Shown in pieces: positions 2,341-59,037 of a DNA stretch of 59,037 bases. The notes under the pieces were generated by a model. It did not search any database, had not been told where the DNA came from, and was given only the letters and a program-made list of their open reading frames with translations. The stretch lies in the NCBI GenBank assembly GCA_004292515.1, contig RDXB01000069.1, positions 1 through 59,037 on the forward strand, written 5' to 3'. The DNA comes from Oscillatoriales cyanobacterium. GTDB taxonomy: Bacteria; Cyanobacteriota; Cyanobacteriia; CACIAM-69d. The stretch's first letter is position 1. Each line of letters starts with the position of its first letter. Position numbers and translations under genes: made by a program.

Positions 2341-2746
2341 GCAGTGGTCTGGGTCTTGGATTACAGATGCCTTGATCGCAACACCTGGGCAACGCTTGCC
2401 ATTCCCATCGAGCCGGGGCCCAGGCCCGTCGCCCTTGGACCGCGATCGCCCGTTGATCGTTCTGCCCTAGAATTGCCCGAACCAGGGTGAATCGCAGTTT
2501 CGATCGCAATCCGTCGGCCCAGCCTGTGGCGATCGCCGTCCCTGTGGGGGTCTTTTGCTCCCTCGCGCGCGATTAGGCGACAATGAGGGGCAAGCGGCCG
2601 TACCAGCACGGATCATGGCAACCGTCAGGGCTGTCGAGGCTGTGTTTTGAGGCCGTTGACCCGCTTGATCGCCCTTTAGATCGTCCTCTCGTTGATTTAC
2701 AGTCCTTGAGTTTTTGCAATCAGCCCAGCATAAGAGCGCAGCCGCT

Positions 2747-4303
2747 ATGAGCGACCCGAATCTTGGCCGAGTGCTAGCCGAACGATATCGACTCGAAGAG
2801 TTGATCGGGCGCGGTGCTATGGGTCGTGTCTACCGCGCCAAGCACGTTTTGCTCGATGCTCCGGTGGCGGTAAAGTTTCTTTCGCAAACCCTCCTGAACA
2901 AGAAGATGCGCGATCGCTTCAAACGCGAGGCGCGCTCCTGTTTTCTGTTGGGTCAAAAGAGTAAGCACATTGTCCAAGTACTGGACTATGGCGTGAGCGA
3001 GGATGAAGTCCCGTTCTACGTGATGGAGTATTTGGAAGGGCGCGACTTGGGGGCGATCGTCAAGCGCGAAACCATTCCGCTGCCCCGCTTCTTGAACCTG
3101 GCCCATCAAATCTGCTTGGGACTACAAGCCGCCCACCAAGGCATCTTGCTCGAAGACAAGCTCTGTCCGATCATTCACCGCGACATCAAGCCCAGCAACC
3201 TGTTAGTGGTTCAAGACCCGGACATGGGCGAATCGGTCAAAATTTTGGACTTTGGGATTGCCAAGCTGATCCAAGACGACGCAGCCCAAACCAGCCACTT
3301 CATGGGCACTTTGGCCTATTCCTCGCCGGAACAAATGGAGGGGAAAGAGCTGGATGGGCGCGCGGATATCTACAGCTTGGGCGTGGTCATGTTTGAAATG
3401 CTGGCGGGGAAAATGCCCCTGCGCGCCGAAACCCACTCCTTTGGCAGTTGGTATAAAGTCCATCGCGATCAATCGCCCTTGACTTTCGCGGAAGTGCGGC
3501 CTGATTTAAAAGTGCCCAAGATTCTGGAATCCTTGGTCTTGCAATGCTTGTCCAAGAATCCGGGCGATCGCCCCTCGTCGGTGGGCGAAATTTTGCAGGC
3601 CCTAGAGCCGATGGAGCATCGCTATAGCCCCGGACGGACGATCGGACGGCGCATTGAAAGCACCTTGCAGCGGGCGACATTGCCAGGATCTAGCGGCAAT
3701 GGCGAAGGCACACCGGTTCGGGGGCGATCGAGTAGCAGCGACCCAGACGTGATTTGTCGCCTGCAATCCTGGCCCAAGGGCAAACCCGTTGCTGAAATTG
3801 TGTTTCCGCACCTGCTGCCCACCAGTGGCGATCCATTGGTCACGGTTTGGATCATGTTGCCGCGAGCCACCATTCAATCGATTCAAGCCAGCGACGAAGG
3901 CAGCAGTTGCTACAGTCGGTTTATGGGCATGATGTCACCCCACCCCATGGTGTTGTGGCTGACGGTGCTCTATATCTCAGTGGCGGGTACTGGCCGTCGG
4001 CCCAAGTGGCTGCCGTCCTATCTCGATCTCAAACAATCGCGCAACCTGGAAACAGCTCGCCACTTGGCTCAACAGGGCTGCTATCGGCTGCTTTTTTTCG
4101 CCCTGGAAGATCCGCAAAACTGCCAGTATGTGGCCAAAATCCACCTGACAGCGGCCAATTGTCAAATGCTGCGCCAGTGGGCTGACCAGAGTGTGCAGAT
4201 GCCGGCAACCCAACCTGGTCTAGGCAAAGACTACCTGCGCAAGGAGTTGGAGCGCGCAAAACCGCAGATTTTGCAGCAGATCGAACAACGGTTGCGACGC
4301 TAG
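2747..4303 (+). CDS. Ser/Thr protein kinase with cyanobacterial C-terminal region
   Basis: A eukaryotic-type (Hanks) protein kinase of about 518 aa. In the kinase domain (about 14-285) the glycine loop GRGAMGRVY is at 21-29, the ATP-anchoring Lys in AVKFL is K43, the catalytic loop HRDIKPSN starts at 144 (D146), the DFG Asp is D168, and SSPEQ marks the activation segment, so it should be active. A short low-complexity linker leads to a C-terminal region of about 200 aa that I do not recognise. No transmembrane segment is evident, so it is probably cytosolic. An in-frame TTG lies 33 bases upstream, but ATG at 2747 gives a cleaner N-terminus. It stands alone, with no phosphatase or FHA partner beside it. 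Its TAG stop codon coincides with the first bases of a repeat element. Its substrate is unknown. Confidence 0.88.
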   Translation: MSDPNLGRVLAERYRLEELIGRGAMGRVYRAKHVLLDAPVAVKFLSQTLLNKKMRDRFKREARSCFLLGQKSKHIVQVLDYGVSEDEVPFYVMEYLEGRDLGAIVKRETIPLPRFLNLAHQICLGLQAAHQGILLEDKLCPIIHRDIKPSNLLVVQDPDMGESVKILDFGIAKLIQDDAAQTSHFMGTLAYSSPEQMEGKELDGRADIYSLGVVMFEMLAGKMPLRAETHSFGSWYKVHRDQSPLTFAEVRPDLKVPKILESLVLQCLSKNPGDRPSSVGEILQALEPMEHRYSPGRTIGRRIESTLQRATLPGSSGNGEGTPVRGRSSSSDPDVICRLQSWPKGKPVAEIVFPHLLPTSGDPLVTVWIMLPRATIQSIQASDEGSSCYSRFMGMMSPHPMVLWLTVLYISVAGTGRRPKWLPSYLDLKQSRNLETARHLAQQGCYRLLFFALEDPQNCQYVAKIHLTAANCQMLRQWADQSVQMPATQPGLGKDYLRKELERAKPQILQQIEQRLRR

Positions 4304-4435
4304 GTCCTGTCAGTGTTTTGTCTGAAACCCTGATTCCACAGTGACGAGATTGTGGGGGGAAAGGGGATTCAGTCCTTTGGGGCGACGATTGGGGCATGAA
4401 CAGTCAACCGCTTCAGCCTCCCATCAAGCCATGAG
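4301..4435 (-). repeat. MITE-like element fused to kinase stop codon
   Basis: Begins TAGGTCCTGTCAG, a variant of the family end TAGGGGCTGTCA. It continues with CTGAAACCCTGATTCCAC, GGGGGAAAGGGGATTCAG and GGGGCATGAACAGTCAACCG, the internal blocks of intact copies in minus orientation. The TAG that terminates the kinase gene is the first triplet of the element. The far end is worn. Confidence 0.7.
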
Positions 4436-4667
4436 GGCAAGCTCTGGGGTCTCAAACGTCACTTGGGGGGGGGGCGATCGCTCGCGATCGATCACAGCCA
4501 TCGCCACTGGCCAGCGCGATCCTGACTCCCGCGATCGAGGTTGATGGCGCGTTTGTTCATCTTCCGCACCTTGCCTCTCTTCTGCCTCTCGCGTCGATCG
4601 TTCACCGCTACTCCACGGCTAGCGGCTGCGTTTTTTTCACCCCAGCGGATTGGCTGGCTGATTCCCT

Positions 4668-10172: not shown

Positions 10173-11397
<1,225 letters not shown>

Positions 11398-12835: not shown

Positions 12836-12890
12836 TCTTGGGGGGCAAGGGGTTGAAACCCCTTGTCTGATCCCTGTTCGATCGCTGCCT
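12836..12890. repeat. MITE-like element, central fragment
   Basis: GGGGGGCAAGGGGTTGAAACCCCTTG followed by TCTGATCCCTG matches the central palindrome and flank of the dispersed family. Terminal repeats are not recognisable, so this is a remnant or an independent hairpin of similar composition. Confidence 0.4.
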
Positions 12891-13280: not shown

Positions 13281-14786
13281 CTAGAGCGCCAATAGGCCCG
13301 CCCCCTGGGTCAACAACAGGAAGGCAAAGATCGCGCCGCCGATGCCGCCCACCAAGAACATGGCGCTGAACTGGCTCCAGCCATCGGCCGATCGCAGGTT
13401 GTCGGGCAACACGGCTGCATTGGCTCCCACGGCCTTGGCCATGCCCCGGAATTCATCCAAGGAGCGATCGCCTCGGTTCGGGAAGGTCACGGCCCCGTAG
13501 AGCGACAGGCACAGGGACAAAATCAACAGCAGCCCCATGGTGGCAATCAGCCCCACCAGTTCCGCCGACTGGCTCGATCGCATCGGCCCCAGCTTGATGA
13601 ACGGCCCCACCAGGAAGTAGCCGTGGGCCATGCCAACTTCTAGACCCCGTGCCAGGGGCGATAGATTCGGGCGATAGATCGGCAGGTATTGCACCAGAGC
13701 CAGGGTCACATCGGAGGCGCTGACGGGCGTATCCAACGTGCCCGCTTCCGGCGAGCCGCCACCGGGCCGGATGAAGCTGTCACTGCCGAACTTGAAGCCC
13801 ACGGCCTCCGCCCGCACCCGCAGGGCGTGCCACAAGTGCCCCGCCAACAGCAAGATCGCAAACACAAAGTGGAAGGTGGCCAGCCAGCCCCGAGCGGTGA
13901 CGGTTCCGTCCTGGGTGACGATGCCCAAGGGCCCGTAGAACACCTCGGGATAGGCGAAGTCATTCACCGACACAAAGTAGGCCGCGAAGAAGCCCATATA
14001 AGCCAAGGCTCCCAGGCTGTAGGACAAGTAGGCTTCCCCCGTCCAATAGAACACCCGCTCCACCCAGAGCCAAGGACGGCTGAGGATGTGCCAGAGGCCG
14101 CCAGCGATGCAGAGGCCGCCAACCCACACATGGCCACCCACCAGATCTTCGAGGTTATCGATCGCAGCCATCCCTTGGCTGCCGTGGGCCCCAACCAGAT
14201 AGCCCCAAATTGTGCCGAATGCCAGGGTGGGTTGCTCAACCAAGCGCACGGAGCCGATCGCCGGGTCATAAAGACCGCCCCAAGCCATGGCCTTGGCCAC
14301 CAGCAGGAAGGCCCCAGATCCCAACAGCAGCAGGTGAATGCCAATGATCGTGGTCATTTTGTCCTTGTCGCGCCAGTCGTAGCCAAAGAAGCCACTGAAG
14401 TTGGCGCGATCGGTGGGCAACACCTCGGGGCCCAGCACGGCGTGATAGATGCCGCCGGCCCCCAACACCGCCGCACTGACCAGGTGCAACATGCCCACCA
14501 CCAAATAGGGATAGGTGTCGGCGATCGCCCCATCGGGCCCCAGGCCAAACCCGAGGCTGGCCAAGTGGGGCAACAGGATCAGCCCCTGAGTCCCCATCGG
14601 TTGCCCCGCATCGTAGCGAGACAACTCAAACAGGGTCATGGCCCCCGCCCAGAGCACAATCAGTCCCGCATGGGCCACATGGGCCCCCAGCAGCTTGCCC
14701 GACAGGTTCACAAACCGCCCATTACCGGCCCACCAGCCCAATTGCGGCATGGCGGGGGGCGCAGTCCGAGAGATCACAGCGCTCAT
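13281..14786 (-). CDS. chlorophyll-binding antenna protein (IsiA/Pcb family) fused to PsaL
   Basis: Residues 1 to about 340 form a six-helix CP43-like chlorophyll a antenna domain ([33 protein letters not shown], conserved His in each helix, lacking the large CP43 lumenal loop). From about residue 353 to 501 follows a complete PsaL domain ([52 protein letters not shown]), the photosystem I subunit that builds the trimer core. A proline/glycine-rich stretch ([11 protein letters not shown]) links them. Compared with ordinary PsaL there is an insertion of roughly 18 residues before SADGW. The gene starts inside the stop codon of the upstream isiA-like gene (ATGA overlap), so the two are probably translationally coupled. 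It is predicted to be thylakoid, anchoring antenna to photosystem I in iron stress. Such fusions are known from other cyanobacteria; the function here is inferred. Confidence 0.9.
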
Positions 14787-15856
14787 GCAGCAGCCTCCTG
14801 GGTGGATGGTTGGGTGGACGAATCAGCGGTGTTAGCGGTGGTCGGGGTGGTTTGCCCAAAGCCAAACCGCACGCCGGCCGCTTGCAGGGCGTGGAAAATG
14901 TGCCCTTGCAGGAAAAAGAACCCGAGCCAGAAATGGGCATTGGCCAACCAAACGCGGGAGGTCAAGGCTCCATCGGGGCTGAAGAAATAGGGCACGCGAT
15001 CGAACCCGATTTGCAACGTGGGGCCAAAGAACGCCTCGGGGAAGGCGACGGCATTCACGGACACAAACAGGGTGGCCACAAAGGCCATCAGGGCCAGCGC
15101 CCCCAGGCTGTAGGACAAATAGGCCTCGCCCGACCAAATAAACAGGCGCTTCACGGCCGCGGACGGTTCCGAAACGATGTGCCAGAAACCGCCCCCGATC
15201 AGGATTGCGCCCAACCAAGCGTGGGCCCCGACGATCGTGGGTAGGTCATGGACGCTGGCCAGCCAGTAGCGACCGCCGGCCCCGAAGAAATAGCCGAAGA
15301 TTTGCCCCAAATCCCAGTTCAGGTCGCTGACCAACTGGACACGGCCCACGGCCGGATCGTAAAGACCGCCAAAGGTGGTGGCCTTCAGCACCAGCAGCCA
15401 AGCGCCCAACCCGAGCAACACCAGGTGAATGCCCAGAATTTGGGTCATTTTGTTGGCATCATCCCAGCGGTAATTGAAAAAGCCGGTGCGATCGAGCCGT
15501 TCGGGCCCCTTAAGGGCATGGAACAAACCGCCCACACCCAAAAAGGCTGAACTGATCAAATGAATCGCCCCGATCGCAAACCAATCATCGGTTTGGGCGA
15601 TCGCTCCGTTGTTGCCCAGGCCCCAACCCAACCGGGCCAGGTTCGGCAACAGAATCAAGCCTTGTTCGTATAGCGGCCGACTCAGATCACAGCGGGAGAC
15701 CTCAAACAGGGTCATCGCTCCCGCCCACAGCACGATCAGTCCCGCATGGGCCACATGGGCCCCCAACAATCGTCCCGACAGTTCCGTCAGGCGGGCATTC
15801 CCCGCCCACCAAGGAATCGCGATCGCCGTCTGTGGCGGCATGGTGGTGACAGTCAT
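14783..15856 (-). CDS. isiA: iron-stress chlorophyll-binding protein, IsiA/Pcb (CP43-like) family
   Basis: A six-transmembrane chlorophyll a antenna protein of 357 aa, close to the 340-350 aa typical of Isi[67 protein letters not shown] and [16 protein letters not shown] are the usual helices with conserved His ligands. The large E-loop of genuine CP43 is absent. A hydrophilic Thr/Ser/Gln-rich tail of about 25 residues is unusual. It is first gene of a probable operon with the IsiA-PsaL fusion (4-bp overlap) and isiB. A Fur-like site lies about 135 bp upstream. The exact subfamily (true IsiA versus another Pcb/CBP type) needs a tree; its similarity to the antenna half of the neighbouring fusion suggests tandem duplication. 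Confidence 0.85.
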
Positions 15857-23064: not shown

Positions 23065-23157
23065 ATGCCCATTTCGTGAATTGATGCTACTCAAGATTCT
23101 TGTCTGACAAGGGTTTCAGCGCAGGATTTGTAGCATTGGTAATCGAAACTGATATGA
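23065..23157 (+). repeat. repeat family 2, copy B
   Basis: Aligns without gaps with 10847-10939 along about 91 bp, the great majority of positions being identical. It is in inverted orientation to the partial copy at 23615-23660, so the two bracket roughly 600 bp. Confidence 0.75.
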
Positions 23158-23416: not shown

Positions 23417-23573
23417 TAAGGGGTGTCGTCACATCACCGAAAACTTCGACTCTATCATTAGCAGATCGTGAGTGAATTGTGGAATGGCAAGGAGTCTAAA
23501 TCCCTTATAACAACAGTTGGGCACTGGAAATCAACCGTTTCAGCTTGCCCCTAGGAAATAACGACAGCCCCTA
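23417..23573 (-). repeat. MITE-like element
   Basis: Left end TAAGGGGTGTCGTCACATCA and right end AATAACGACAGCCCCTA fit the family terminal repeats including terminal TA. Internal GGCAAGGAGTCTAAATCCCTT and TGGAAATCAACCGTTTCAGC match the family in minus orientation. It is located inside the family-2 inverted pair. Confidence 0.7.
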
Positions 23574-23614: not shown

Positions 23615-23660
23615 TCTTCTCAGGCAAGAATCTTGAATAGCATCAATTCAAGACATTGGG
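23615..23660 (-). repeat. repeat family 2, inverted partial copy
   Basis: The reverse complement reads TGAATTGATGCTATTCAAGA followed by TTCTTGCCTGAGAAG, matching the start of copies A and B. It ends next to a TAA that closes the upstream reading frame of the damaged glycosyltransferase-like gene. Confidence 0.65.
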
Positions 23661-23745
23661 GTAACCACAAAATTGGGGCATCTCACAAGAGCAGCATTCA
23701 CCTGCTGGCTCTCTAGTCTATGGCCCGGATTTTGAATATTGTCGT

Positions 23746-24674: not shown

Positions 24675-24744
24675 AGACTGCTTGCGCGAGACTGCTTGCA
24701 CGAGACTGCTTGCACGAGACTGCTTGCACGAGACTGCTTGCGCG
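24675..24744. repeat. tandem repeat, 5 x 14 bp
   Basis: Five head-to-tail copies of AGACTGCTTGCRCG without spacers. The outer two have GCGCG and the inner three GCACG, so expansion of an inner unit is likely. It is immediately preceded by two copies of TTGGGATTGGCAATTA (24641-24672). Confidence 0.9.
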
Positions 24745-26661: not shown

Positions 26662-26985
26662 TGACTCTACCCGGCTGCAAAGGTCGGGTATGAACTCGAT
26701 GTGGGGAGTGTTAGGGATAATTACTTACCTGGATTTAGTTTAATAAACTTTACATAGAGTGACCAATCATTTTTCCTGATAATTACAATTTGTTTCAAAA
26801 AGTTAAGTTCATGTCCCTGTTCGATCGCTAATGGGGATCAGGCTGAAACAGTTAATTTTCCGTACCCCAGTTGTCGAGACCAGGGGATCAAGACCCTTGC
26901 TGCCCCTGGTCTCGTCACGGTGGAATCAGAGTTGTAGGCAAGATGGGTTGCAAGCTAGATGGCGATGTACCCTAGACCCTAGACC
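26662..26985. other. intergenic region upstream of ndhD
   Basis: 324 bp. The half near ndhD (26725-26800) is AT-rich, with TAATAAACTTTACATAGAGTG-like sequence, and is the probable ndhD promoter. The other half is a degenerate MITE-like element. No gene is seen. Confidence 0.5.
26815..26960 (+). repeat. MITE-like element, degenerate
   Basis: GGCTGAAACAGTTAATTTTC, CGTACCCCAGTTGTCGAGAC, CCCTTGCTGCCCCTGGTCTC and GTCACGGTGGAATCAGAG match the internal order of the family. The terminal repeats are worn and the ends approximate. Confidence 0.6.
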
Positions 26986-31019: not shown

Positions 31020-31967
31020 CTAATTGCGGCCTGCCGTTCCCGAGTCGATTCTGGCTCCCGCCCACAGCAGTTTTTCGCGCAGAGTGCCGTAGTAGGAATA
31101 GTTTTCGCGCAGGATGATGAACTGGGCCACGCAGTCGGCCATCCGCACATCGATCCGCTGGCCGGGCCAAAGGGACGTGCCCAACACACCATCTGTCCAA
31201 ACTTTGGTGGCTAGTTCGTAGTCGCCTAGGGGCCAAATGCTGACTAAGCAGCGGGGGGGCAAAACGATCGGGCGGCTGGACAAACTCAGGGGACAAATGG
31301 GGGTGACGGCGATCGCATCAAGCCCCGCGTGCAAAATCGGCCCATTCGCCGACACCGTGTAGCAAGTAGAGCCGGTGGGGGTGGAAACAATTAGCCCATC
31401 GCCGTGGTAGCGATCGACGATTTCGTTGTCGATTTCCACTTCTAACAGGGCGGTCATCAGGCGATCGCTCGAAATCGGCTTAACGCAGATTTCATTCAAA
31501 GCCAAAAACGGCTCCCCCACTAGCTCTGTTCCCTTGTAGTGACCATCATCGAGGGCAGAGAGTCGCTTACCCTCAAAAACTTGCCCTTGCAGCATCATCC
31601 GCCGCTGCACTGCAAACCGATCGCCCAGCAAGCGATCCCAGACGACGGCCGAATTTTCAAACAGCTCAAATGGCTCCGTCAGAAACCCCAAGTGACCGCC
31701 TACGTTCACGGCCAAGATTGGGATCTGCTCAACGGCTAGGTGGCGCGCCGCTGCCAACACCGTGCCATCACCACCCAGCACGATCGCCAGGTCGATCGAT
31801 TGCGTCACCGAAGCCAAAAACACCGGGTAGGGATTATCTTTGGGCCCGCTGGGGCCCACCAGCGATCGCACCCCCAAGGCATCCAACTCACGGGCACAGC
31901 GATCGGCCCAAGCTTGGCTGCGAGCATCTCCGGCCTTGTAGGCAATGATGGCGCACTTTAAGTTCAT
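31020..31967 (-). CDS. nadK: NAD kinase
   Basis: Phosphorylates NAD to NADP, needed for photosynthetic NADPH. 315 aa. The NADK signature IVLGGDGTVLAAAR (GGDG) is near residue 67; VNVGGHLGFLTE and TPTGSTCYTVSANGPILH (the GSTxY-type NAD-binding block) follow. FLALNEICVKP carries the conserved NE pair. Length and motifs match one of the two NAD kinases usually found in cyanobacteria. The last few residues, next to a tandem repeat, look variable. It is the only gene of its transcript by spacing, with a nested repeat element lying between it and the alpha-amylase gene. Confidence 0.93.
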   Translation of the reverse strand: MNLKCAIIAYKAGDARSQAWADRCARELDALGVRSLVGPSGPKDNPYPVFLASVTQSIDLAIVLGGDGTVLAAARHLAVEQIPILAVNVGGHLGFLTEPFELFENSAVVWDRLLGDRFAVQRRMMLQGQVFEGKRLSALDDGHYKGTELVGEPFLALNEICVKPISSDRLMTALLEVEIDNEIVDRYHGDGLIVSTPTGSTCYTVSANGPILHAGLDAIAVTPICPLSLSSRPIVLPPRCLVSIWPLGDYELATKVWTDGVLGTSLWPGQRIDVRMADCVAQFIILRENYSYYGTLREKLLWAGARIDSGTAGRN

Positions 31968-32049
31968 GGTTTGGCAGTTCTAGAGGCTTGTGCGGGCCGG
32001 GATTGCCCACCCTACCAGCTTGCCACTATTGCTCAAAACCAGCTGATCG

Positions 32050-32274
32050 CAGGGGAATGTCGTCACTGCCTGGGGTCAGGCTGAACCAGTTGACGTTCCT
32101 CGATCCAGCCACAGTAGACAAGGGGCTTAGGGCGTGTCATCAGATGCCATTGATGGCAGATGAAACAGTGATGTTCCGTGCCCCAGTCGTCGTAACAAGG
32201 GGCTTAAGCCCCTTGCCCCCCACAATCCCGTCACGGTGGAATCAGGATTTCAAGCGATTTGACAACAGATCCTA
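32050..32274 (+). repeat. MITE-like composite: outer left half plus complete inner copy
   Basis: The outer left half (32050-32128) ends in CAAGGGGCTTA. There an intact inner element starts, TAGGGCGTGTCATCAGAT (32129), and runs through CAAGGGGCTTAAGCCCCTTG to its right end TTGACAACAGATCCTA (32274). The last CTA is also the complement of the alpha-amylase TAG stop. Bases 32119-32205 are identical to the reverse complement of 1-87. Confidence 0.85.
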
Positions 32275-33750
32275 AGCCTGCTGAATCCAAACCGACACGG
32301 AGCCACTGGAGCAACGAAATTCTCCCCAGCCCCATTCGTTGGTGTAGACCGGCTGCTTAATATGCTCGGTCAAGTCATAGAAGGTGGCATTGGGTCGGCC
32401 CGTTTCCATCCACAGGCTGGTGGGGCCGCTGTTGCTCATGATTACGGCCATGGCCAGCGGGTGGGTTGCATCGCCCAAGCGCGTCCAGCCGATCGCATTG
32501 GTTCCGTAGAAGTAGTCGTACTGCGGCCCCCAAGCGAACCGTTGACGGGCGTAGAGGAACTTGTCGATCAGCCAACTGTGATTGGCCAGCCAGATTTCGT
32601 AGTTGTTGCCATCCCGCCCACGATCGGTGTAGTGCCCGCCGTAGTAGTCGGCATAGAACACGCAGGGATAGCCCTCCCGCCGCAACAAAATCAGCGCGTA
32701 GGCCAAAGGCTTAAACCACGCTTCCACGGGTGACTCGAGGGCTTGCAGCGGTTGGCTGTCGTGGTTGTCCACAAAGGTGACGGCCAAGGACGGCTGTTGC
32801 TGCATCAGGGTATGGTCGAGGATCGTTCGCAAGTCATAGGCACTACCCATCCGACTGGCTTGGTGGAAGTTGTAGTGCAAAGGCACGTCGAACAAGGCCA
32901 TGCGTCCGTTGGTCGAGGCTAAGTAGTGGTGCAGCGCTTGTACGTCGTTTTCCCAATATTCCCCCACGGCAAAGAGGGGCTTGTGGGGACTGTGGGCCCG
33001 GACGCGATCGAGCCAGGTATTGAACAGACCCGATCGAATATGCTTCACCGCGTCCAGCCGGAACCCATCGATCGCCAACAACTCCTGAATCCATTCACCC
33101 CAGCGGCCCAACTCTTCGAGCACCTCCGGGTTGTTGCTGTCGAGGTCGCAGGCCATCAAGAAGTCGTAGTTGCCATAGCGATAGCTGACTTCCGTTTCAA
33201 AGACCTTGTTGGCCAATCGGTAGATGTTGCGATCGTTGCCATCGTCGGCATTATGGTTCACCGAGTCGAAGCAGCGGGCATCCCACTTCATGGCGGAGTA
33301 GCGATCGCCCCGGCCAGGAAAATTAAACTTCGACCAAATCCGAATTTCCCGAGCCGCTGCCGAGTCCCAATTGCGGTTGTCTTGGGCAACGGGCGTGGCT
33401 AAAACCGTTTCCGGTTCGTCTGCGCCGTTTTTGTGGTTAAACACCGTGTCTAGGTAAACTTGCAGCCCAGCGCCGTGGGCCGCTTTCACGGCGGCAACCA
33501 GTTCATCTTTTGTGCCGTACTTGGTGCGGATCGTGCCCTTTTGGTCAAATTCCCCTAAATCAAACAGGTCATAGGTGCTGTAGCCCACATCAAATCCGCT
33601 CGTGCCTTTGTAGGCCGGGGGGAGCCACAGGGCTGTGATGCCTTTTTGGGCAAGTTCGCAGGCGCGATCGCGGACTTGCTGCCAGAGCGTGCCATCTGCG
33701 GGGCAGTACCACTCGAAGTACTGCATCATTACGCCGTTAAGTTCTGCCAT
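32272..33750 (-). CDS. cytoplasmic alpha-amylase (GH13)
   Basis: An intracellular alpha-1,4-glucan hydrolase acting on glycogen or maltodextrins. 492 aa with no signal peptide, like the Bacillus/E. coli AmyA cytoplasmic class (GH13_5). MQYFEWYCPADGTLW at the start, LWLPPAYKGTSG, the VYLDTVFNHKNGADE segment with the conserved VxNH, GFRLDAVKHI with the nucleophile Asp, FAVGEYWEND with the general acid Glu and FVDNHDSQ complete the four conserved regions. The catalytic triad is therefore intact. It is monocistronic. Its TAG stop is shared with the end of an adjacent MITE-like element, so the C-terminus (VWIQQA) may have been set by that insertion. Confidence 0.92.
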   Translation of the reverse strand: MAELNGVMMQYFEWYCPADGTLWQQVRDRACELAQKGITALWLPPAYKGTSGFDVGYSTYDLFDLGEFDQKGTIRTKYGTKDELVAAVKAAHGAGLQVYLDTVFNHKNGADEPETVLATPVAQDNRNWDSAAAREIRIWSKFNFPGRGDRYSAMKWDARCFDSVNHNADDGNDRNIYRLANKVFETEVSYRYGNYDFLMACDLDSNNPEVLEELGRWGEWIQELLAIDGFRLDAVKHIRSGLFNTWLDRVRAHSPHKPLFAVGEYWENDVQALHHYLASTNGRMALFDVPLHYNFHQASRMGSAYDLRTILDHTLMQQQPSLAVTFVDNHDSQPLQALESPVEAWFKPLAYALILLRREGYPCVFYADYYGGHYTDRGRDGNNYEIWLANHSWLIDKFLYARQRFAWGPQYDYFYGTNAIGWTRLGDATHPLAMAVIMSNSGPTSLWMETGRPNATFYDLTEHIKQPVYTNEWGWGEFRCSSGSVSVWIQQA

Positions 33751-33905
33751 GACCGTGCCTGTGTTTCCTGGGCGGGCTTCCTATCCACGACTGTAGGCCG
33801 ATCGCCCGGAGGGAAGCCCGAGACTTTGCACAGACGTTGCACAAATTAAACTAGGGCAAATATTTTACCGATGGTCTTGATGCGATCGCGCCTCGATCGC
33901 GCCCC

Positions 33906-34195
33906 TAGGGCTGTTGTCATGTCCTAGCGTGAGACCGCAACGGTTGATTTTCCGTAGTCGTAACAAGGGGCTTAGGGGGTGTCATCATTTCCTGTAATGA
34001 GTCTGAAATTGTCGATTTTCCACGCCTCAATCGTCGTAACAAGGGGCTTAAGCCCCTTGCTGCCCTACGATCCGCTAACGGCAGCATCAGGGTTTCAGGC
34101 TAATTGATGACAGACCTTGAGCCCCTTGCTGCCCAACGATCCACTCACGGGGGAATTAGGCTAGGGTTGCAGGCGATTGGGCGATCGCGCCCCTA
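33906..34195 (+). repeat. MITE-like elements, one inserted inside another
   Basis: The outer element starts TAGGGCTGTTGTCATG (33906) and is split at its central CAAGGGGCTTA. A complete inner element occupies 33973-34117 (TAGGGGGTGTCATCA to TTGATGACAGACC). The outer right half then resumes with TTGAGCCCCTTGCTGCCC and runs to GCCCCTA at 34195, which is the trpD stop codon read in reverse. It shows clearly that the central TA is an insertion target. Confidence 0.85.
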
Positions 34196-35257
34196 ATCCG
34201 CCAAGAACTCCCGCAGCGCCGCCAGTTTGTCCCAGGCCGCGCCGCTAGCCAAAATTTCCTTAGCCTTGGCCACGCCCGCCGCACAGGCCGCCGCCGAGCC
34301 GATCGCCCCCTCCACAGCCCCCGCCGCTTGCAAGGCCAACGAAGCATTCAAGACCACCGCATCCCGCTGGGCCGTTGTGCCCCGTCCTTGCAAGATCGCT
34401 TGCAGAATTTCGGCATTCTCCGCCGGGGTTCCGCCCACCAGAGCCGCCGTTGGAGCCGACTCGCAACCCGCCGCCACCGGGTCAAGCACTGATCGCACCA
34501 CAGCCCCATCAGCTAACACCGCCAAATCCGTCAGATCCGCCAAGCCGCCCTCGTCTAGGCCTTCGCGCCCATGCAGGACGATCGCCCGTTGGGTGCCCAA
34601 CAGGCCCAACGCCCCCGCCATCACATCGATTAACGCTGGCTGAAACGTACCAATCACTTGCCCTGTCGGTCGCAACGGGTTCACCAACGGCCCCAACAGG
34701 TTAAACACCGTCCGTACCTTCATCGCCTGCCGAATCGGGGCCACGGCCTTCATGGCCGGATGCCAACCCGGCGCAAACAAAAACGTAATTCCCACCGCAT
34801 TCACCGCCGATCGAATCCGCGCCGGATCAGCCCCCAGGTTAATGCCCAGCGCTTCCAACACATCTGCCGATCCCGACTTGCTGGAGGCCGCCCGGTTGCC
34901 ATGCTTGGCCACGGCCACACCGGCCGCCGCCGCCACAAAGGCCACCGCCGTCGAGATATTGAAAGTGGAGGCCCCATCGCCGCCTGTGCCGCAAGTGTCG
35001 ATCAGGGGGCTGGGCAGTTCGTCACCCGCGATCGCCACCGATTGCCCCAATAACACCCGGGCCATGCCGGCCAGCTCTGCCGCCGTGACCCCCTTAGCCT
35101 GGATCGCTGCCAAAATCCCCCCCGACAGGGCCGGGGGCAGAGCCTCCGTCAGCCAGCCTTGCATCAGTTGGGCCGCTTGGTCTTGGGACAGGGATTGGCG
35201 ATCGAGCAACTGCTGCAATAGGGCGGGGCCGTTCAACTCGATGGGGGCGGAAGTCAT
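34193..35257 (-). CDS. trpD: anthranilate phosphoribosyltransferase
   Basis: Second step of tryptophan synthesis: transfers phosphoribose from PRPP to anthranilate. 354 aa, normal length. Key blocks are [20 protein letters not shown] (PRPP-binding GTGGD and the NxST motif), [23 protein letters not shown], and [17 protein letters not shown], with HGREGLDE toward the C-terminus. Other trp genes are not in the window, as usual for cyanobacteria where trp genes are scattered. Its TAG stop merges with the end of a repeat element (TAGGGGCGCGATC on the coding strand). Confidence 0.94.
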
Positions 35258-35390
35258 ATCTCGAAGCTCCAGGGCGATCGCTTGTGAAAGTCCAGTGCTA
35301 GAATACTATCCGCGCTGAAAACCCAGCCCTTTTGCAGAGCGTCTTTTGCAGGAGACTGACTCAGCAATTCGGTCTGCAACGACCACCAGC

Positions 35391-35462
35391 GCGGGTGTAG
35401 TTCAGTGGTAGAACGTCAGCTTCCCAAGCTGAATGTCGTGGGTTCGAGTCCCATCACCCGCT
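35391..35462 (+). tRNA. tRNA-Gly (CCC)
   Basis: Complete cloverleaf: acceptor GCGGGTG / CACCCGC, D arm GTTCAGTGGTAGAAC, anticodon stem TCAGC / GCTGA around the loop TTCCCAA (anticodon CCC), T arm GTGGG-TTCGAGT-CCCAT. CCA is not encoded. Confidence 0.95.
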
Positions 35463-35555
35463 TCGTTTTCGAGGTTCCGAAATGTAGACCTGTTGAGTAT
35501 TTTACCCAACAGGCTCGTTGCTTGGAGAGGGCAAAGCGATCGGTCATTGGGAGAC

Positions 35556-35702
35556 TAGGACGTGTCATCAAATGAGCTGGATTGGGGCTGGAACAAGCCA
35601 TTTTCCTAGCCCAACCGCCCTAGACAATTGGCTCAAGCCCCTTGCCCCTCACGATCAAGTAACGCCAGAATCAGGGGTTAGGGGATTTGATGACAGCCCC
35701 TA
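35556..35702 (+). repeat. MITE-like element, complete single copy
   Basis: The best isolated copy: 147 bp including TA at each end. The left end is TAGGACGTGTCATCAAAT and the reverse complement of the right end is TAGGGGCTGTCATCAAATCC, so the terminal inverted repeats match over about 18 bp. The central palindrome has decayed to GGCTCAAGCCCCTTG. Confidence 0.85.
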
Positions 35703-35703
35703 A

Positions 35704-35748
35704 CAATGGGCATTGAAGCAATGGGCATTGAAGCAATGGGCATTGAAG
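35704..35748. repeat. tandem repeat, 3 x 15 bp
   Basis: Three exact head-to-tail copies of CAATGGGCATTGAAG directly after the MITE-like element, in the spacer downstream of the zinc-binding lipoprotein gene. Confidence 0.95.
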
Positions 35749-35878
35749 TGGCTTCGAGTAGTCAAACACCCCCACAAGCCCGAATGGTTCCCGAATAGTC
35801 ACTGTGATTTAGTCCAAATTTAGTCCCGAACCTGGCTGCCTAAATCCGGCCACTTAAATCCGTAGATAGTGGTTATTG

Positions 35879-41006: not shown

Positions 41007-41312
41007 TAAGGGGTGTCATTCCTTCCCAGTCATGAGCCTGAGAGGATATCTGAAAAGCATCTTTTGGCCCGGGCCAAGCACCAATCGTCTTGGGGCCAAG
41101 ATGCTCAAGCCCCTTGTCTGCGCCGATCGATGGGGTGTGCAGAGTATCAACTCTGGCTTTTCAGACATCCCCTGAGATCATCTGAGATCATCGATTTCCC
41201 ATGCCTCAATTGTCGTAATCGGGTGCTTCAGCCCTTTGCCTCCCACGACTAGCCTAAAACCCTCTCGTCACGGTGGAATTAGGGTTTCAGGCGAATTGAT
41301 GACAGGCCCCAA
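41007..41312 (+). repeat. MITE-like composite element, variant subfamily
   Basis: Left end TAAGGGGTGTCATTCCTTCC and right end GAATTGATGACAGGCCCC bracket about 300 bp. The middle duplicates family blocks: CTCAAGCCCCTTGTCTGCGCC, ATGCCTCAATTGTCGTAATC and GTCACGGTGGAATTAGGG. The inner part (41105-41180) shares a variant version with 50370-50450, suggesting a distinct subfamily. Confidence 0.65.
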
Positions 41313-46972: not shown

Positions 46973-47246
46973 TGAATTTGTGCTAGACGGGGAAACTATG
47001 GCTGGAGTCCTCCAAGACGCGCGCTAGTCTGAAACCTTGCAGAAATGCAAATTTCGTTTAGATTCTACACAACTCAATTTCCCTCGCAAGGTCGCCTCTG
47101 GTACTAAACCCAAAGCCTGTCACGGTTCGCGCCATCCTTGAATTGATGTGGCTCACGAGCGATCGCCCGTCGCTGCCGATCGCTGGGCTTTTGTCAAGGT
47201 GCAAACGAACTTGAGCGCAATCTTTAAACCTAGCTACCACATCGAC

Positions 47247-47302
47247 CAATCAACCGCGACCGATCAACCGCGACCAATCAACCGCGACCAATCAACCGCG
47301 AC
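47247..47302. repeat. tandem repeat, 4 x 14 bp
   Basis: Four uninterrupted copies of CRATCAACCGCGAC (A, G, A, A at the variable position), followed by a partial fifth unit CGAT. Located in the murA upstream region. Confidence 0.95.
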
Positions 47303-47435
47303 CGATGCCGCTCGATCGCCATCAATCTGTATCGATCTATGTGGGATCTGAACCGGCTATTTAGCCACCGAGCCACTATCCCTTTCCCGTGATCCGTTTG
47401 TTGCCATCCGCTCCCGATGGAAGTGTGGCGGATCT

Positions 47436-47796: not shown

Positions 47797-48579
47797 ATGA
47801 TCACAAGCGTCAAAAACCCGATGGTGAAGCAGTTGAAAAAGCTGCATCAAGCAAAGGGAAGACACGAAGAAAATCAATTTCTAATCGAGGGAACACACCT
47901 ACTGCAAGAAGCCCTTGCGGTTGGTCATCCCCTCGATTTTGTCTATTGCACGGCTCACTGGCAGGCTAGGTATCCTCAAGACTATGACCGCGTGGCAGCC
48001 ACAGCCTCGATCGAACTGGTTTCAGACGCAGTGTTGGGGGCGATCGCCACGACGGTGCATCCCGACGGTGTGGTGGCCGTTGCACCTCGCCACCCGATCG
48101 TGCCTGCGGGATCGCTGCGGGTGGCCTTGGGCCTAGAGCGATTACAAGATCCAGGAAATTTGGGGACGATCGTGCGGGCAGCAGCGGCGGCCGGAGCCGA
48201 TCGGCTCTGGATTGATCGCCACAGTGTTGATATCGATCATCCCAAGGTGCTGCGATCGACAGCGGGGCAGTGGTTTCGGATGCCGATGCAGGTGGCGGAT
48301 GATCTGCGATCGACCGTGCGTGACCTAAAAGCCCAGGGAGTCAAGATTGTAGCAACTCTGCCTTCAGCTCCTTTGAGCTACTGGGAGGCGGATTTGCGAT
48401 CGCCCGTGTTGGTCTTGTTAGGCAACGAGGGAGCAGGATTATCACCCGAACTGACCGCTGAAGCGGACACCACCGTCAGCATTCCCCTGGCTCCGGGGGT
48501 GGAATCATTGAATGTGGCGGTGACAGCGGCCCTGCTGCTCTACGAAATTCGTCGTCAGCAGAACCTAATAGACCCCTAG
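47797..48579 (+). CDS. TrmH/SpoU-family RNA 2'-O-methyltransferase
   Basis: A SAM-dependent RNA ribose methyltransferase of 260 aa from ATG 47797. The N-terminal substrate-binding domain (ITSVKNPMVKQLKKLHQAKGRHEENQFLIEG) is of the rRNA-type TsnR/YsgA kind. The SPOUT domain carries motif 1 (LERLQDPGNLGTIVRAAAAAG), motif 2 (VLLGNEGAGLS) and motif 3 (IPLAPGVESLNVAVTAALLLYE). The upstream in-frame codons fall inside the tRNA gene and are excluded. It is placed 14 bp after tRNA-Leu, so it may be read from the tRNA transcript. The target (23S rRNA or tRNA) is not decidable from sequence. Confidence 0.9.
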   Translation: MITSVKNPMVKQLKKLHQAKGRHEENQFLIEGTHLLQEALAVGHPLDFVYCTAHWQARYPQDYDRVAATASIELVSDAVLGAIATTVHPDGVVAVAPRHPIVPAGSLRVALGLERLQDPGNLGTIVRAAAAAGADRLWIDRHSVDIDHPKVLRSTAGQWFRMPMQVADDLRSTVRDLKAQGVKIVATLPSAPLSYWEADLRSPVLVLLGNEGAGLSPELTAEADTTVSIPLAPGVESLNVAVTAALLLYEIRRQQNLIDP

Positions 48580-48748
48580 CTCAAATCGGCTAGCGACCCT
48601 GATTCTCTCGTTATGACGGGTTATGACGGTCAACACACACGACGGTCAACACACATGACGGTCAATACAACGGTTCAGCCGTAGAAAACCGGCGATTTCA
48701 GACCCATTGCAGAATCGGGTGATGACATCCCCTCAATGACATCCCCTC
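48577..48748 (-). repeat. MITE-like element, degenerate
   Basis: Starts TAGCTCAAATCGGCTAGCGA then CCCTGATTCTCTCGTTATGAC, resembling the family in minus orientation. It ends GGGTGATGACATCCCCTCA, followed by a repeat of ATGACATCCCCTCA. The middle has a small tandem array of ACGGTCAACACAC. The methyltransferase stop TAG coincides with its first triplet. Confidence 0.5.
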
Positions 48749-49927: not shown

Positions 49928-50576
49928 ATTCCCCGATCTCAGAACCGCCCGACTGGATTGACCGCTTGGCTGGTGTCCCCGAAAGCCGGTCAACTGACAA
50001 AGCGATTACAACTTCAATTACTCGATATCTGTTTTATAGTGTACTGCCCTCAGTCTGGGGCTAGGGGCTTTACCCAAGATCATCAGCCGATGACCAGTGA
50101 AATTTCACCGCGTCCGCCGCCTGTCCGCCGCCTGAAAAATGAAGTCAAGTTGCTGCCTTAGGGATGATCAACTGATTGATCGAGATGCACCATTTTCGGA
50201 CGACCGGCCGCAATTTATAATGAACTGCTGATTTTCTATCCGTGAGCACCACGTCTGACAAGGACATCGGATGACAAAATCATTAGGTAGCCGTTTTTAC
50301 GATCATTCTCCTGAGAGGGGATCGCAGAAATGTCGCTCAGTACGGGCCAAGGATCAATTATCGTGGGGGCAAGGGGCTTAAGTCCCTTGTCTACGTCGAT
50401 CTCTGGGGCATACAGAGTCACAATTTGGGCTCTTCAGATTTGGCTCTTCAGGCCTCCTCTAAGGTTGGTTCCTTGGGGTTTTATTCTTTTGGGATTGGTT
50501 CCGAAAACCTGTTCTGAGTTGTGCGATCGCCACGATTGAACGCTTGTTTGGCTTAATTTCACGTTACTGACCCCCT
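49928..50576. other. intergenic region upstream of prfB
   Basis: 649 bp between the divergent TPR gene and prfB. It contains a MITE-like fragment (50310-50470). No gene is recognised. The prfB promoter is expected in 50480-50570, where TTGTTTGGCTTAATTTCACG is AT-rich. Confidence 0.5.
50310..50470 (-). repeat. MITE-like element, variant subfamily, ends worn
   Basis: Contains CGTGGGGGCAAGGGGCTTAA and GTCCCTTGTCTACGTCGATC, then TCTGGGGCATACAGAGTCAC and TTGGGCTCTTCAGA. The latter part matches 41110-41175 better than it matches the main family, so the two share a subfamily. Terminal repeats cannot be set exactly. Confidence 0.55.
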
Positions 50577-51702: not shown

Positions 51703-51726
51703 AAACTCATGCCAAAAACCTAAAAG

Positions 51727-51757
51727 ACAAGGGGCTTAAGCCCCTTGTCCCGATGAC
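51727..51757. repeat. family central palindrome between prfB and ilvE
   Basis: AAAAGACAAGGGGCTTAAGC continues to CCCCTTGTC, a perfect inverted repeat of the MITE-like family centre, lying between convergent genes. It may serve as a bidirectional terminator. Terminal repeats are not visible, so it may be a remnant. Confidence 0.6.
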
Positions 51758-59004: not shown

Positions 59005-59037
59005 TAGGGGCTGTCATACACTGAACAGATGCTGCTC
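59005..59037. repeat. MITE-like element end, cut by window edge
   Basis: CTAGGGGCTGTCATACACTG matches the family terminal repeat TAGGGGCTGTCATCA. The rest of this copy, if complete, lies outside the window. Confidence 0.5.

Follow-up and report, generated by a model that had tools for sequence, protein, structure and literature searches.

MITEs described in cyanobacteria include Nezha. A repeat that supplies stop codons to genes has been described in Streptococcus pneumoniae, where the stop codon of 36 genes is encoded by BOX repeats and strong evidence that these genes are truncated is lacking (PMC3049150). The RUP repeat of pneumococcus is a 107-bp MITE of IS630-Spn1 that targets TA and for which mobilisation in trans has been proposed (PMC2229807). 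For IS5, YTAR has been reported as the duplicated target motif (PMC10359306). Our literature searches returned nothing on MITEs in Limnothrix or on MITEs of the IS5 family located at stop codons.

Here, we describe a MITE of a Limnothrix-like genome that resembles IS5-family (NF033580-type) MITEs in its TA-centred YTAR target and in sharing its ends with an ~862-bp element of a related genome (G004). It duplicates TA only, whereas IS5 of E. coli duplicates the four bases YTAR. BOX is a different element with a similar stop-supplying effect, which the available part of that paper does not explain by a target site, and RUP has an IS630 partner rather than an IS5 one, with no stop-codon effect in the accessible portion of its description. 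Beyond the BOX precedent, the present case adds a target-motif mechanism and a quantitative null.

The stretch of DNA analysed (the window, 59,037 nucleotides) is contig 11 of the 3.98-Mb genome G000. A preliminary description of the window had proposed that the ends of an element supply the TAG stop codons of neighbouring genes, and that insertion may have trimmed or replaced native C-termini while providing a hairpin downstream.

A 144-bp MITE with a TA target

The repeat is a short, non-coding, palindromic MITE, mostly 144 bp between two TAs, with terminal inverted repeats (ends GGGNCTGTCRTCA inverted). Its consensus (146 columns, from 49 full copies in three congeneric genomes) runs from TAGGGCCTGTCGTCA to TGACGACAGGCCCTA and folds into one long near-perfect hairpin (−76.9 kcal/mol, z −7.5). 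We estimate ~370 ends above background in G000. With at most 1 mismatch, TAGGNNNTGTCRTCA occurred there 400 times vs. 29 for the reversed control, marking a high-copy dispersed element; the corresponding counts were 229 vs. 29 in G001, 80 vs. 26 in G002, 313 vs. 34 in G003, and 75 vs. 33 in G004. Copies were sampled from listed places in the genomes, not exhaustively.

A pyrimidine preceded the TA at 93% of 249 MITE ends, and a purine followed the far TA in 76 of 80 copies. TA flanks both sides of paired copies but is single at the empty site, as in a target-site duplication. Moreover, nesting was common, with many copies lying inside another copy's centre (CAAGGGGCT-TA-AGCCCCTTG), where one TA is now two. 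Together, the nested copies and the flank preferences identify TA, set within Y-TA-R, as the duplicated target and G as the first base of the mobile sequence. Copies in the window away from the gene ends treated below were as follows:

1 to 148, + strand: two partial MITE copies at the contig edge (1-78 and 77-148, nhmmer)
2096 to 2285, + strand: intergenic MITE copy (nhmmer E 1.3e-22)
23418 to 23573, + strand: intergenic MITE copy (nhmmer E 2.3e-22)
26834 to 26943, − strand: intergenic MITE copy with one end missing (nhmmer E 1.7e-20)
35556 to 35702, − strand: intact intergenic MITE copy (nhmmer E 5.6e-31); both ends TAGG..., not placed at a gene's stop
41173 to 41309, − strand: intergenic MITE copy (nhmmer E 3e-21)

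Bases 1-88 of the window are the exact reverse complement of 32118-32205. Other repeats were also present. A second, related family with a GGGGCTTAAGCCCC core occurs at 41030-41165, 50303-50438, 51723-51750, and 12841-12868, and the MITE inserts into such centres. A third repeat, with a CAAGATTCTTGTCTGACAAGGGTT core, has three copies that are 80-86% alike (10847-10933, 23065-23151, and 23616-23665), and two 14-bp tandem repeat arrays lie at 24675-24744 and 47243-47312. Two matches to IsrR antisense RNA (Rfam RF01419; 14198-14375 and 15289-15466) lie opposite the adjacent ORFs 13281-14786 and 14783-15856.

A partner transposase in a sister genus

In G004, which represents a sister genus, locus L284 holds an ~862-bp insertion sequence, itself nested in a MITE-like palindrome, whose ends (TA-GGGGCTGTCGTCA and TGACGACACCCCC-TA) are shared with the MITE. 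Its two overlapping reading frames jointly match the IS5 model NF033580 (E 5.5e-84, over the cut-off) and also match Pfam PF13340 and PF01609, placing the partner in IS5. We infer that an IS5-type transposase moved these MITE copies. An IS5-type gene matching the L284 partner was not found in G000 or G001, although a MITE does not strictly need such a partner in its own genome. The many copies in these two genomes may therefore be remnants of past activity, or another enzyme may move them. IS5-type genes at G002 and G003 loci were rejected as partners, as they lie without MITE ends. A further candidate, the TAGGGGCTGTCATACACTGAACAG at the contig end (59005), is instead the beginning of a TnpB gene of IS200/IS605 type. 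This 5′ end (59005-59037) recurs exactly or nearly exactly in 22 places of G000, many at contig ends, and the TnpB element is a repeated insertion sequence at which the assembly breaks.

Stop codons at element ends in the window

The preliminary description had placed the stops of a kinase gene and an alpha-amylase gene in the first triplet of an abutting element, and profile matches bore this out in both cases:

2714 to 4303, + strand: Ser/Thr protein kinase gene (PF00069), ending RLRR* in the element TAG
4301 to 4444, + strand: decayed MITE copy (nhmmer E 1.1e-20); its first TAG is the kinase stop (4301-4303), and its far end is eroded
32272 to 33750, − strand: alpha-amylase gene (PF00128), stop TAG at 32274-32272
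32128 to 32274, − strand: intact 147-bp MITE copy, TA included (nhmmer E 6.8e-36); the amylase gene stops in its TAG (32274-32272)
32053 to 32127, − strand: right half of an older MITE copy (nhmmer E 1.3e-9), directly beyond the amylase-side copy

The kinase is 88% identical to that of G001, the nearest named relative. Its element-free orthologues in G001 and G002 end RLRRP* or RLRRS* in TGA, and the window kinase is one residue shorter. At the amylase-side copy, AGCCCCTTG follows the far TA, so the pre-insertion codon reads TAA, while element-free orthologues stop at the same codon (WIQQA*) with TGA. The orthologues end in TGA, and only the right half of the older copy lies beyond; a deletion between GGCTT microhomologies within 32053-32274 could have joined the amylase gene and the element.

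Two other gene ends had been put forward as similar cases, one apparent and one possible:

34193 to 35257, − strand: trpD gene (PF00591/PF02885), stop TAG at 34195-34193
33908 to 34195, − strand: older MITE copy at the trpD stop (nhmmer 34185-34116 and 33974-33908), split by a nested copy
33973 to 34116, − strand: intact nested MITE copy (nhmmer E 5.4e-38) in the older copy's central palindrome
48569 to 48735, + strand: decayed MITE copy at the 3′ end of a TrmH-type gene (nhmmer 48667-48733, E 5e-5)

The trpD TAG does adjoin a MITE copy, and its position is identical in the element-free G001 (TAG) and G002 (TAA). However, the proximal end of the copy is scrambled (GCGATCGC), with the first ~15 bases mismatching the end consensus, and TAGGGGCGCGATCG is also found beyond its far end. 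Ownership of this TAG by the element is therefore likely, though short of certain. A decayed copy is likewise present at the TrmH-type gene, but the gene does not make a clean fourth case: local alignment begins at about 48581, and ungapped extension moves the beginning to 48569-48570, which would probably leave the stop (48577-48579) inside the copy and not in its first triplet.

The proposed downstream hairpin stood in part. Intact stop-sited copies place a strong hairpin directly after the stop, whereas the kinase-side copy has lost it (fold z 0.06, no better than shuffles). No terminator-like signal exceeded shuffles in the amylase-trpD region (31900-35800), and nothing pointed to a function.

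Coincidence of stops and element ends across genomes

To count gene ends against element ends, we scanned 256 distinct ends in three genomes for coding ORFs pointing at the element with stops at −200 to +120; gene calls were ORFs with a hexamer score, not annotation. Stops fell exactly at offset 0, in the element TAG, in 15 genes of G000, 8 of G001, and 3 of G002. By contrast, the other 83 stops over −200 to −1 amounted to ~0.4 per position, and none fell at −3 to −1 or +1 to +3 at any of the 256 ends. The first TAG was thus the stop codon of a coding ORF in 26 of the 176 element clusters examined in these three congeneric genomes. Only two ORFs entered the element out of frame, leaving 26 of 28 in one frame (p = 7e-11). 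With the TA duplication, this agrees with the earlier suggestion that insertion occurs at TA and that the element-end TAG acts as a stop in one frame only. A 384-residue CofH-like ORF in G004 likewise stops in the element TAG, while a case at L004 was dropped because its score of 0.18 did not indicate a credible gene. Judging from their C-terminal sequences, we take the stop-sited genes to include enolase, RNA polymerase beta′, and aspartyl-tRNA synthetase types in G000 and pyruvate dehydrogenase E1 and LeuD types in G001. The coincidence of stops and element ends is real, genome-wide, and far beyond chance.

Separately, TAG was the commonest stop overall (154 of 266 in the G000 loci, 72 of 131 in G001, and 43 of 75 in G002). 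This predominance is not caused by the MITEs, because it is also seen in a genome with few elements.

We then asked how many stops the target motif alone would yield. Across 682 kb of loci, we tallied the YTAR sites that lie in non-coding sequence or in stop codons, and stop codons made up 11.7% of them; the loci had been chosen for holding elements, which limits this estimate. The observed share of clusters at stops was 14.8% (26/176; p 0.12). Against plain TA sites, the expected share is 6.3% (p 5e-5), but this apparent excess vanishes under YTAR preference. Given 14.8% vs. 11.7%, the YTAR motif plus intolerance of coding insertions suffices for the share of copies at stops.

Fate of the C-termini

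In contrast to the preliminary description, trimming or replacement of C-termini did not emerge as a rule. Among stop-sited copies whose far end was readable with no more than 2 mismatches (matches with 3-4 mismatches were discarded, and the trpD row was left out, the match there being the nested copy's end; the row of the CofH-like gene was off by two bases, and its stop was read separately), A or G followed the far TA in 15 of 15, and the pre-insertion codon was therefore TAA or TAG. An empty site agrees: L256 of G002, without the element, reads GGCAAGAGGCT TAA GACCTTTGTTTGCATTGATCG (AGGCT TAA), and the occupied L163 of G001 reads GGCAAGAGGCT TA-GGGGGTGTCGTCA...GACAGGCCC-TA AGCCCTTTGTCTGCATTGATCG (AGGCT TA[GGG..CCC]TA). 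Between the two, GCT TAA corresponds to GCT TA[G...C]TA A, with the protein unchanged. A second pair, of pyruvate dehydrogenase type (L168 vs. L268), agrees; both times, one and the same codon reads TAA in G002 and TAG in G001.

The stop codon position was the same in 8 of 15 G000 stop-sited genes with an element-free orthologue, compared to 25 of 47 genes without an element; about half of the comparable stop-sited genes thus differ from their orthologue in the C-terminus, as do the controls. Because these rates are equal, the orthologue comparison indicates that trimming or replacement is not a general effect. For amylase and trpD, the orthologues share the stop position, an outcome that the preliminary description had itself named as counting against its proposal, while the kinase is one residue shorter. 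The orthologues of amylase and L091, both with the stop position conserved, end in TGA; as TGA lies outside the YTAR target, one has to suppose either an earlier change from TGA to TAA or a microhomology deletion. Single genes may still have been trimmed, as diverged tails cannot be dated: the kinase by one residue and others by up to nine (L008, L075, L099, and L188). Compared with the orthologues, L099 lacks two residues, L075 lacks four, and L008 lacks nine.

Explanation and alternatives

We give a probability of about 0.88 to the reading that a MITE of IS5 kind with a YTAR target, TA duplication, and an initial G re-forms TAG when it hits a stop, normally leaving the protein unchanged. On this reading, the 144-bp element inserts at Y-TA-R and duplicates the TA, and harmless sites are non-coding YTARs together with TAA or TAG stops that follow a pyrimidine. 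Since TA followed by R is TAA or TAG, an in-frame hit can fall only on an existing stop. There, the host gives TA and the element G, yielding TAG at the same codon, and this is repeated at each stop hit because the mobile sequence begins with G. With the protein unchanged, the insertion is tolerated, whereas other-frame or intragenic insertions are rare and presumably purged by purifying selection.

The shortened kinase, L099, L075, and L008 could instead suggest insertions close to the 3′ ends of genes that cut short or exchange the C-termini, with the element TAG serving as a new stop, and the tail GGQEA at L163 of G001 is indeed coded by an older palindromic repeat of the GGGGCTTAAGCCCC-core kind. 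However, truncation would produce all three frames rather than 26 of 28 in frame 0, YTAR bars in-frame hits on sense codons except at a few non-YTAR sites, and control genes vary equally in their C-termini. Largely refuted by the orthologue comparison and the G001/G002 empty site, this account is very improbable. It also seems unlikely that selection favours stop-sited copies through a hairpin of use to the host, such as a terminator or an mRNA 3′-end protector. The near-perfect hairpin of the consensus and the presence of same-stop copies in all three species for at least two genes (the L069 and L214 cases) are consistent with such a benefit, but stops show no excess over the YTAR expectation, no terminator-like signal in 31900-35800 exceeds shuffles, and the kinase copy has lost its fold. 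Finally, TAGG could be common and the matching cases picked, and TAG is the commonest stop in the G000 loci. Yet 26 stops at offset 0 against ~0.4 at each other offset in three genomes, plus the CofH-like gene of G004, make an accident barely conceivable.

Implications

A further idea, which we consider unlikely, is that the end base G and YTAR are a matched adaptive pair, with the element tuned to land safely in stops, which account for about one eighth of harmless sites when the genome is compact. If so, TA-duplicating mobile elements in general would start with G or A above chance. The preferred reading offers a simple, quantified reason for repeat-supplied stops: YTAR contains TAR, and an element that starts with G restores the stop. 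The same logic can be checked for any TA-duplicating element, and it is a warning to annotators that such overlaps of gene and element should not be taken for truncations.
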